In this document: positions 720 through 6,100 of the stretch, piece after piece | Layout: each line of letters begins with the position of its first letter | Numbering within the stretch: position 1 is the stretch's first letter | Assembly: GCA_938009745.1 (NCBI GenBank) | Contig: CALLII010000112.1 | Coordinates: 1-36,967, forward strand | Direction of reading: 5' to 3' | Origin: an uncultured Flavobacteriales bacterium | GTDB taxonomy: Bacteria > Bacteroidota > Bacteroidia > Flavobacteriales_D > CAJJDF01 | Length of the DNA stretch: 36,967 nucleotides | Notes under the pieces: model-generated | What the model was told of the DNA's origin: nothing | The model's input: the letters and a program-made list of their open reading frames with translations, nothing else | The model's database searches: none | Made by a program: the position numbers and the translations under genes

Positions 720-959
720 ATGAAAAACCTAATTGTAATCATAATACTTTCAGTTGGTTTAGCAAATTGCAAAAAAAGCTGTAAAAAAGACATTCCTGCT
801 TGTAGTGAATCTCCTACAGGCGGAAATTGTTATGCAGATTTTGAAAGTTGGTTTTTTGCCGAGGGTGACAATAAATGTGTTAAAATTAGGTATAGCGGTT
901 GTGATGAAAAAGGATTTAAAACCGAGGCCGAATGCAAGGTTTGTGAATGTAATAACTAG
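720..959 (+). CDS. Kunitz/BPTI-like lipoprotein
   Basis: A 79-residue protein. A short hydrophobic leader ends in a lipobox, L-A-N-C with Cys17, so it should be a lipoprotein. The mature part follows the Kunitz/BPTI pattern: Cys28, Cys37 (within PTGGNCYA), Cys53, Cys61 (YSGC), Cys72 and Cys75 or Cys77. The spacings C28-C37 (9), C37-C53 (16) and C53-C61 (8) equal those of BPTI C5-C14-C30-C38; the following loop is two residues shorter (11 against 13). The SWFF aromatic stretch and FKTEAEC ending also fit. By alignment the P1 residue after the second cysteine is Tyr38, which in the family would suit a chymotrypsin-like target. Protease inhibition is inferred. The gene directly follows the secreted protein gene at 246-713. 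Confidence 0.75.
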   Translation: MKNLIVIIILSVGLANCKKSCKKDIPACSESPTGGNCYADFESWFFAEGDNKCVKIRYSGCDEKGFKTEAECKVCECNN

Positions 960-3327: not shown

Positions 3328-4287
3328 GTGAGCATATTTAAAAAAATATTTTCGAAAGAAAAAAAAGAAACTCTCGACAAAGGGCTCGAAAAAACTAAAG
3401 AATCGGTTTTTTCGAAACTATCAAGAGCTGTTGCCGGAAAATCTTCTGTAGATGCAGATGTATTAGACGAACTAGAGGAAGCGCTTATTACTTCTGATGT
3501 TGGTGTAAAAACTACAGTTAAAATTATAGAACGAATTGAAGCTCGTGTTTCTAAAGATAAATACATCAATACTTCTGAGCTTAACAAAATTCTACAAGAA
3601 GAAATTGCTGGTTTACTAGAAGAAAACAACTCTGTTGACCAAACTGATTTTTCTGTTCCTGATACTCACAAACCACATGTAATAATGGTTGTAGGTGTTA
3701 ATGGTGTAGGAAAAACTACTACCATTGGAAAGTTAGCTCATCAGTTTAAGAAAGCTGGAAAAAAAGTAGTTCTTGGTGCTGCCGATACGTTTAGAGCAGC
3801 AGCAGTTGATCAACTTATTATTTGGGCAAATCGGGTAGGAGTTCCTATTGTACAGCAAGGAATGAATGCCGATCCTGCTTCGGTTGCATTTGACACTTTA
3901 CAAAGTGCAGTGACTCAAGGTGCAGATGTAGTACTTATTGATACAGCCGGAAGATTACATAATAAAGTAAATTTAATGAACGAGCTTACTAAAATTAAAA
4001 GAGTAATGGATAAGGTTGTGCCTGATGCACCTCATGAAATTTTATTAGTATTAGATGGTTCAACAGGGCAAAATGCTATAGAACAATGTGCTCAGTTTAC
4101 GCAAGCAACAGATGTTACTTCCCTTGCACTTACCAAACTTGATGGTACGGCAAAAGGTGGAGTTGTTATAGGAATTTCCGATCAGTTTAGTATTCCTGTT
4201 AAATACATTGGTGTTGGTGAAGGAATGGAAGATTTACAAGTTTTCAATAAAATGGAGTTTGTAGATTCATTATTTTCATTGAAGTAA
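3328..4287 (+). CDS. ftsY: Signal recognition particle receptor FtsY
   Basis: A 319-residue SRP GTPase that receives ribosome-nascent chain complexes bound by Ffh and passes them to SecYEG at the inner membrane. The start is a GTG, giving MSIFKKIFSKEKKE; this basic N-terminus can bind membrane, and the long acidic A domain of E. coli FtsY is missing, as is usual outside gammaproteobacteria. The N domain is about residues 25-100. GTPase motifs of the G domain: GVNGVGKTT (123-131), DTFRAAAVDQL (153-163), DTAGR (205-209), TKLDG (269-273) and the closing GVGEGMEDL. It lies 7 bp after the small lipoprotein gene. Confidence 0.97.
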   Translation: MSIFKKIFSKEKKETLDKGLEKTKESVFSKLSRAVAGKSSVDADVLDELEEALITSDVGVKTTVKIIERIEARVSKDKYINTSELNKILQEEIAGLLEENNSVDQTDFSVPDTHKPHVIMVVGVNGVGKTTTIGKLAHQFKKAGKKVVLGAADTFRAAAVDQLIIWANRVGVPIVQQGMNADPASVAFDTLQSAVTQGADVVLIDTAGRLHNKVNLMNELTKIKRVMDKVVPDAPHEILLVLDGSTGQNAIEQCAQFTQATDVTSLALTKLDGTAKGGVVIGISDQFSIPVKYIGVGEGMEDLQVFNKMEFVDSLFSLK

Positions 4288-4307
4288 GATTCTCGTGTTA
4301 GTTAGAA

Positions 4308-4767
4308 TCTAGAAAAGAGAATTTAGAATGATAGAAAAGGAAAAAATTAATTAAAATGGAAACCAAAAATTATTCTTTTGAAAAATTAATTGTTTGGCAA
4401 AAAGCCCATTCTCTTGTTCTTAACATCTATAAAATGACTCAACAATTCCCAAAGGATGAAATTTATGGACTAACTTCACAAATTAGGAGAGCTTCCGTAT
4501 CAATAGCAGCAAATATTGCAGAAGGATTTGGAAGAAGAGGCGCCAAAGATAAATTGAGATTTTACAATATTTCGAAAGCATCACTAAATGAAGTACGTTA
4601 CTTTTTAATACTTACTAAAGATTTAAAATATTATAATACTGATACACTTTTAATGGATATTGAAGAAGTGGATAAAATGTTATTTAGTTATATGAAATCA
4701 ATTTCAGACAACCCTCTTTAAACTAAAAAGAGCTAACATAACTAACATTCTATAATTCTCAATTCTA
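4308..4767. repeat. Inverted repeats flanking the four-helix-bundle gene
   Basis: The left arm at 4310-4334 reads TAGAAAAGAGAATT then TAGAATGATAG; the right arm at 4742-4767, read on the opposite strand, is TAGAATTGAGAATTATAGAATGTTAG. They match at about 22 of 26 positions with one single-base gap. The arms enclose exactly one gene, so a transcript could fold with the gene in a large loop. This recalls the intervening sequences inserted in 23S rRNA that carry the same protein family; the comparison is inference. Confidence 0.6.
4356..4721 (+). CDS. Four-helix-bundle protein of the 23S rRNA intervening-sequence family
   Basis: A 121-residue protein with the family hallmarks: YSFEKLIVWQKAHSL near the N-terminus, IRRASVSIAANIAEGFGR in the middle and RFYNISKASLNEVRY after it. 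Family members form a small four-helix bundle, are found inside 23S rRNA intervening sequences of some bacteria and scattered through Bacteroidota genomes, and are related to the Avd accessory protein of diversity-generating retroelements. Function is unknown. There is no reverse transcriptase or rRNA sequence nearby, so this is neither an rRNA insertion nor a DGR. It separates ftsY from rimO and is bounded by imperfect inverted repeats. Confidence 0.9.
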   Translation: METKNYSFEKLIVWQKAHSLVLNIYKMTQQFPKDEIYGLTSQIRRASVSIAANIAEGFGRRGAKDKLRFYNISKASLNEVRYFLILTKDLKYYNTDTLLMDIEEVDKMLFSYMKSISDNPL

Positions 4768-4783
4768 ACATTCTCTCTAAAAC

Positions 4784-6100
4784 ATGAAGACAAAAACATT
4801 ACAAAAAAATAAAGTAAACGTAATCACATTAGGTTGTTCTAAAAACACCTTTGATTCGGAATTACTAATGGCTCAGCTACATGCCAATAAATTTGATGTA
4901 GAACACGAATCAAATAGTCAAGATCACGAAATTGTGATTGTGAATACTTGCGGATTTATTGATAATGCCAAGCAAGAATCTATCGATACTATCCTACAGT
5001 ACGCAAATGCGAAAGACAATGGATTAGTTGATAAATTATACGTAACTGGATGTTTATCAGAAAGGTATAAAGACGACTTGGAAGAAGAAATTCCACAGGT
5101 AGACGCCTATTTTGGAACTCGTGAATTACCACAAATGCTTAAAGTCCTTAATGCAGACTACAAAAAAGAATTATTAGGAGAACGAATTTTAACTACTCCG
5201 GCTCACTTTGCTTATTTCAAAATTGCTGAAGGATGTGACAGACCTTGTTCATTTTGTGCAATCCCACTAATGAGAGGGAAACACAAGTCTACTCCTATTG
5301 AGCAATTAGTTAAAAACGCAAAAAGTTTAGTAGCAAACGGAGTTAAAGAATTGATGCTAATCGCTCAAGATTTAACTTACTACGGATTAGATTTATACAA
5401 AGAAAGAAAATTAGCCGAATTACTTCGTCAGCTTTCTGATATTGAAGGATTGGAATGGATAAGGTTGCACTATGCCTACCCTAGTGGTTTCCCATTAGAT
5501 GTATTGGATGTAATGGCAGAAAGAGATAACATTTGTAATTATTTAGACATGCCTTTACAACATGGTTCTACCAAGGTGCTGAAAGACATGCGTAGAGGAA
5601 TTACCCGTGAAAAGACTACCGCTTTGGTAAAAACTATTCGTGAGAAAGTTCCTGGAATTGCAATCAGAACAACTTTGATTGCTGGTTACCCTGGGGAAAC
5701 TGAAGAGGACTTTCAGGAAATGGCAGAATGGGTAAAAGAAATGAAATTCGATAGATTGGGAATATTTGAATATTCGCATGAAGAAAATACTCACGCTCAT
5801 AACTCTGATGATGACGTTCCTGCAGAAGTAAAAACTGCAAGAGCCGAAGAGATTATGGATATTCAATCGACTATCTCTTACGAGCACAACCAAGCTAAAA
5901 TTGGAAAAGAGTTTAAAGTACTCTTTGACCGAATTGAAGGAGAACACTTTGTAGGAAGGACAGAATTTGATTCACCAGAAGTAGATAACGAAGTTTGGGT
6001 TCCTATTTCTGAAGAAAATCATGTAAGAATTGGTGATTACGCTACCGTAAAAATCAATACTGCTGATTACTTTGATTTGTTTGGGAGTATTGTGAAGTAA
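4784..6100 (+). CDS. rimO: Ribosomal protein S12 methylthiotransferase RimO
   Basis: A 438-residue radical-SAM enzyme that adds a methylthio group to an aspartate of ribosomal protein uS12. N-terminal MTTase domain with the three cluster cysteines Cys18 (LGCSKN), Cys56 (NTCGF) and Cys90 (TGCLSE); radical-SAM CxxxCxxC at Cys151, Cys155 and Cys158 (EGCDRPCSFCAIP); C-terminal TRAM domain from about residue 375. The specific LGCSKNTFDSE start separates RimO from MiaB. In Bacteroidota it usually follows ftsY directly; here the four-helix-bundle gene lies between. Confidence 0.96.
   Translation: MKTKTLQKNKVNVITLGCSKNTFDSELLMAQLHANKFDVEHESNSQDHEIVIVNTCGFIDNAKQESIDTILQYANAKDNGLVDKLYVTGCLSERYKDDLEEEIPQVDAYFGTRELPQMLKVLNADYKKELLGERILTTPAHFAYFKIAEGCDRPCSFCAIPLMRGKHKSTPIEQLVKNAKSLVANGVKELMLIAQDLTYYGLDLYKERKLAELLRQLSDIEGLEWIRLHYAYPSGFPLDVLDVMAERDNICNYLDMPLQHGSTKVLKDMRRGITREKTTALVKTIREKVPGIAIRTTLIAGYPGETEEDFQEMAEWVKEMKFDRLGIFEYSHEENTHAHNSDDDVPAEVKTARAEEIMDIQSTISYEHNQAKIGKEFKVLFDRIEGEHFVGRTEFDSPEVDNEVWVPISEENHVRIGDYATVKINTADYFDLFGSIVK

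Follow-up and report, generated by a model that had tools for sequence, protein, structure and literature searches.

In many relatives of the bacterium studied here, ftsY and rimO lie 2-18 nt apart or overlap, which agrees with the original prediction that the pair is commonly contiguous. In the 36,967-nt stretch analysed in this study (the window), taken from the draft genome of an uncultured Flavobacteriales bacterium (G000; 90% complete, 3.5% contamination), the two genes are separated by a small gene of the family encoded in the intervening sequences (IVSs) of 23S rRNA, enclosed by inverted repeats. What is such a gene doing in a protein-coding operon junction, and does it belong to a mobile unit?

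At the level of sequence, the interval 4288-4783 is probably a mobile element that resembles an IVS and resides in an operon junction, and a member of a widespread class. Our comparisons define this class as a single PF05635 gene flanked on either side by arrays that are inverted and matched in register, with units of about 7 (sometimes 8) nt. Such elements sit mostly in operon junctions, co-directional with the host genes. Their arms, the 7/8-nt period, the locus specificity and the G-rich 5' polarity are visible in the sequences, and the association with PF05635 genes extends across phyla.

Structure of the ftsY-rimO junction

The host genes, both on the + strand, are ftsY upstream (3328-4287, GTG start) and rimO downstream (4784-6100), each 92-93% identical to its counterpart in congeners. 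The intergenic space is taken up by two arms around a PF05635 gene (4356-4721), and all genes lie on the + strand. The 5' arm (4295-4334, +) is a purine-rich stretch of 40 nt made up of degenerate repeats of about 7 nt (TTAG TTAGAAT CTAGAAA AGAGAAT TTAGAAT GATAG). When aligned to the reverse-complemented 3' side, it matches the 3' arm (4742-4783, +), a pyrimidine-rich inverted copy of 42 nt that abuts the rimO start codon. Complementarity extends over 33 of the 40 aligned positions with two 1-nt gaps, giving an arm score (the top-scoring inverted match of the 160 nt that precede a gene to the 160 nt that follow it) of 17.5. The original prediction of arms of about 25 bp with about 22 complementary positions was thus right as to their existence and too short as to their length. 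With the arms chosen beforehand, the duplex reached -26.2 kcal/mol, compared with -9.3 ± 2.7 kcal/mol when the 3' arm was shuffled. A generic inverted-repeat finder with 9-nt seeds found no arms at this locus because the longest exact run within them is only 7 nt, so mismatches must be allowed. In addition, BLAST against the own genome showed that the 3' end of the element, from the gene stop to the rimO start (4722-4783, +), is a dispersed repeat.

An Rfam search of the whole window found no rRNA and no other Rfam family. The locus therefore shares with IVSs the complementary termini that can form a stem around the insert (4295-4334 and 4742-4783), and departs from them in lying between ftsY and rimO instead of inside an rRNA gene; the layout of an ORF within a stem in an mRNA context had been anticipated correctly. 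The present analysis adds that the arms are arrays of heptamers whose word is specific to the locus, and that this is a property of the family.

The ORF at 4356-4721 encodes a four-helix-bundle protein of 121 aa, and its placement in the 23S rRNA IVP family was borne out by matches to PF05635 (4e-38, 130.3 bits, cut-off 33.8) and TIGR02436 (2e-37, 127.7 bits, cut-off 24). PF05635 proteins have been annotated from rRNA inserts and, to our knowledge, have no known function. The solved relatives are 2GSC (XCC0516) and 2RLD, one solved relative is pentameric, and the proteins tend to a mildly positive net charge (median +3). Omega values of 0.03-0.20 for protein pairs with measurable dS show purifying selection, and therefore that the protein is kept; stops are present in several gene copies elsewhere. 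The accessory protein Avd of diversity-generating retroelements (DGRs) is a related four-helix bundle, but the window protein matched Avd-type profiles weakly (bAvd 2e-6, DivGenRetAVD 3e-7) and under the curated cut-offs (30.9 bits versus 80), with ftsY and rimO as neighbours and no reverse transcriptase or template repeat noticed near the gene, and is not assigned to that group. Within the unit 4288-4783 the IVP ORF stands alone, with no nuclease, transposase or reverse transcriptase, which leaves the IVP protein as the only encoded candidate for the agent of movement.

The locus in relatives and in its own genome

Among 30 rimO loci from the own genome and relatives, an upstream IVP gene was present only in G000 and G005. 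Three congeners have a 97-121 nt ftsY-rimO gap without the gene, which is in line with the original prediction. These are not clean pre-insertion sites, no such allele was found among the relatives compared, and one congener (G003) has kept a sequence like the window's 3' arm before rimO. In G005, which belongs to another genus of the same family, the closest IVP relative (65% identical) also stands before rimO, and in the tree the two proteins belong to one well-supported three-member group; the arms there consist of another word and the upstream gene differs. Because of the arm-like remnant in G003 and the IVP relative in G005, an older element before rimO that was lost in congeners would be as plausible as a recent insertion in G000.

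Searching 4716-4783 against the own genome revealed near-copies upstream of gltX (91%, E 6e-13; L382, G000:C12:43121-43167) and of an arsC-like gene (84%, E 9e-11; L387, G000:C74:22908-22967). Both stand directly before the start codons and are co-directional, and arms may in this way become 5' leaders of genes. Neither copy is accompanied by an IVP gene or a 5' arm, and for the window locus the dispersed part is the 3' end only. Together with the congeners that lack the gene, these near-copies lend support to the earlier idea of a small mobile element. A short pattern built on the locus's own word, allowing one mismatch, was not commoner in the AT-rich own genome than its reversed control (27 versus 23). 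A second IVP gene of G000, on contig C135 (L080), is associated with another word, AATTACGAATTGAG. We also noted two different obgE genes in this draft, on C135 (L080) and C74 (L387); one of these contigs may be a contaminant or a strain variant.

Insertion sites and mobility in the order

PF05635 genes of the order recur in the junctions fadB/fadA, sdhA/sdhB, cysD/cysN, scoA/scoB, hmgA/hpd, sufB/sufC and others, names which we recognised from the flanking protein sequences. The IVP gene is co-directional with both neighbours in 58 of 81 cases, compared with 160 of 322 ordinary genes (p 4e-4); some f9 and f10 members are convergent or antisense to their neighbours. In a tree of 90 proteins the junction labels cluster (12 changes versus 22.1 when shuffled). 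The cysDN and hmgA-hpd junctions are each held by two well-separated IVP clades, and the occupancy of sdhAB is compatible with one origin.

Evidence for movement came from several comparisons. First, copies in G039 that are 94% and 82% identical stand in different places and share the gene and approximately 80-150 nt of flank before they diverge; these relatives thus behave as a unit found at different sites with its termini. No target-site duplication was noticed in the G039 copies compared, and no mobilising enzyme of its own was found in the unit. Second, ORF-less elements with the same ends occur among the G039 arrays. Third, the scoA-scoB junction contains a full element in G003, a 30-nt solo sequence resembling a 3' arm in G002, and 5 nt in G027 and G008, and the hmgA-hpd junction contains the element in G003 and G005 and ORF-less repeats with another word in G001 and G002. 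Our comparisons show patchy occupancy, repeated and independent colonisation of the same junctions, near-identical copies of gene and arms within one genome, and ORF-less and solo-arm derivatives.

Heptamer arrays and the matching of the two arms

The flanks of PF05635 genes showed autocorrelation peaks at 7, 14, 21 and 28 nt, with smaller ones at 8 and 16 nt. Repeat words differ between loci, yet within a locus the arms match each other: own arms were matched at a score of at least 12 in 67% of cases, compared with 4.8% for arms of other loci. At the sdhA-sdhB junction, IVP genes are present in five genomes from different families, each with its own word, and the own partner arm was the best match in four of the five (in the fifth, L038, the difference was small). 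The arms are also matched in register, as the mean score fell from 18.4 to 8.5 when one arm was slid by 7 nt, a drop that is partly expected since the best register had been chosen beforehand. Where the G and C counts of the 5' arm differ (81 loci), G exceeds C in 74 (p 3e-15). All repeat words share only a weak consensus, TNRRNNN (8.56 versus 7.87 ± 0.34 in permuted controls).

The possibility that RNA pairing is kept by compensatory change was set aside, as the mismatch test gave it no support: at arm positions without Watson-Crick pairing, G-U (103) was about as frequent as A-C (91; p = 0.43). If RNA pairing were under selection, an excess of G-U would be expected; none was seen, so that the likeness of the two arms would be maintained by copying of DNA, and the RNA hairpin may be without function.

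These results bear on the alternative that the element serves its host, as an intercistronic processing or regulatory device in which hairpin and IVP protein tune the expression of the operon partners and the arms are selected for pairing. The same junctions of metabolic operons (fadB/fadA, sdhA/sdhB, cysD/cysN, scoA/scoB) are used again and again, which fits this explanation, as do the possible single origin at sdhAB, purifying selection on the protein and co-directionality with the neighbours; against it, occupancy is patchy within a genus, words are replaced wholesale at orthologous sites, and the arms have no excess of G-U. We regard a host function of this kind as improbable, and favour a mobile element of operon junctions.

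Two further arrangements were observed. L047 and L056 are IVP genes with long direct, not inverted, heptamer arrays on both sides; like the convergent or antisense f9 and f10 members, they count against the reading as a mobile element. In L136, L138, L294 and L299 (G039 and G057), a 14-bp palindrome, TCCGCCGCGGCGGA, occurs repeatedly in or beside octamer arrays, as if nested.

Arms compared with ordinary genes

Arm scores were obtained for 518 genes in approximately 670 kb, comprising 400 kb of the complete relative G007 and approximately 270 kb of the own genome. The window IVP gene ranked first, and the two IVP genes of the G007 stretch were also within the top four. Arm scores of at least 14 were reached by 49 of 93 PF05635 genes of the order (53%) and by 3 of 515 other genes (p 2e-42). 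About half of the PF05635 loci are therefore without strong arms by this measure, and are either old or eroded copies or outside the element.

The same scan addresses whether the IVP gene is passive cargo, that is, whether heptamer hairpins arise alone through slippage and fold-back copying and IVP genes were inserted or captured. Solo arrays without IVP genes do exist, and complementary heptamer stems without an IVP gene occur in Nostoc trnL introns, where the P6b stems described in the part of the report considered here show whole-word replacement with pairing retained (PMC4476775). However, heptamer arrays were rare away from IVP genes in the 670 kb scanned, and in the one genus examined the octamer word of the G039 elements, with 56 occurrences in that genome and 11 in G057, the two genomes that bear IVP genes, was absent from four congeners without them. 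Passive carriage thus seems slightly less probable still than a host function. A fortuitous inverted repeat in an AT-rich intergenic region around an ordinary small gene can practically be dismissed, even though the whole intergenic RNA folds only mildly better than shuffles (1.5 SD; z -1.5, 8/100), because the window locus ranks first of 518 genes, near-copies of the arm lie elsewhere in its genome, and the arm pattern across PF05635 refutes chance at the family level. The whole-region fold is not decisive, and the evidence therefore lies in the arms.

Distribution across phyla and plasmids

Eighty named loci with PF05635 relatives were collected; their sources include Bacteroidota, Cyanobacteriota, Planctomycetota, Chloroflexota, Acidobacteriota, Nitrospirota and Methylomirabilis, as well as one Desulfosarcina and an archaeal Methanophagales genome; many are metagenome bins, and single placements need care. 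Arm scores of at least 14 were found in 39 of 79 (49%), with the same 7-nt peak. Twenty named loci, all outside Bacteroidota, were checked for rRNA and contained none, and no PF05635 gene was found in phage records.

On cyanobacterial plasmids, IVP genes occupy the cas10-cmr3 and cas6-cas4 intervals and also occur within T4SS-like operons; several of these loci have matching heptamers. In two of these loci (L145, L147), IVP genes with heptamer arms stand inside Cmr and type I-D CRISPR operons; they are probably insertions, not CRISPR components. A function specific to reverse transcriptases or CRISPR was set aside, as most loci lie within ordinary metabolic operons. PF05635 genes in cas loci, for example between cmr2 and cmr3, have been listed as a CRISPR-Cas-associated function (PMC3936711). 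As far as the portion of that report considered here goes, it likewise places the family in an operon junction, a layout matched in a Picosynechococcus plasmid, and differs in that flanking repeats are not mentioned.

Possible mechanism and relation to known systems

We propose that the transcript would form a long hairpin whose loop contains the ORF, and that insertion between cistrons would be tolerated in the same way as rRNA helices tolerate IVSs. The IVP protein would bind the array hairpin and be needed for spread or maintenance. RNase III may cut the array stem, a prediction for mRNA junctions to which we give somewhat less than an even chance. For the 23S rRNA IVSs with S23p/IVP ORFs of Leptospira and Coxiella, excision by RNase III is established (PMC4990558). 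Those IVSs have the same protein family, a long stem that loops out an ORF and a patchy occurrence, and have been called selfish or parasitic (PMC4990558); in contrast, the present element lies in a protein-coding operon junction and its arms are built from heptamers of a word specific to the locus. Insertion of IVSs into rRNA helices could then be one instance of a more general insertion at sites where transcripts tolerate it.

The IVP family was already known from rRNA IVSs, from cas operons and from rRNA insertions of CPR bacteria (PMC11270868), and heptamer repeats were known separately. The sections of the reports considered here describe such repeats in cyanobacteria, Xanthomonas and Beggiatoaceae (PMC4692102, PMC4679880), including tandem heptamers of Calothrix (cited in PMC4692102), inverted GGGAATC pairs in Xanthomonas (70 and 75; PMC4692102) and sets of TAACTGA heptamers (PMC4679880). 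These resemble our arrays in having 7-nt units that are often degenerate, mostly intergenic and in some cases arranged as inverted pairs; they differ in that the same sections make no link to PF05635 genes, and the trnL and Xanthomonas repeats were compared by description only. The origin of the repeats in cyanobacteria, Bacteroidota and Xanthomonas is left unexplained in those sections. An open-access literature search found no paper joining PF05635 genes with heptamer repeats. A single unit of gene and repeats, present in many phyla and for the most part outside rRNA, would tie the two puzzles together.

A broader and doubtful extension is that PF05635 proteins lay down, spread and keep matched heptamer or octamer inverted arrays across bacteria, so that rRNA IVSs, operon IVP genes, cyanobacterial heptamer repeats and the Nostoc trnL heptamer stem would form one unrecognised element class without a classical transposase. 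In RAYT/REPIN systems, one gene is flanked by repeats and gene-less hairpins are dispersed in the same genome, and RAYT is a tyrosine transposase. The element described here is similar in its gene between repeats and its dispersed gene-less hairpins, but no nuclease domain is known in the IVP protein. The element-bearing operons of culturable flavobacteria offer a concrete, testable system.

Elsewhere in the window, the ORF at 720-959 (+) encodes a small protein, putatively a lipoprotein, that matches the Kunitz/BPTI domain PF00014 above the cut-off (2e-5); this domain seems to be unusual in bacteria.
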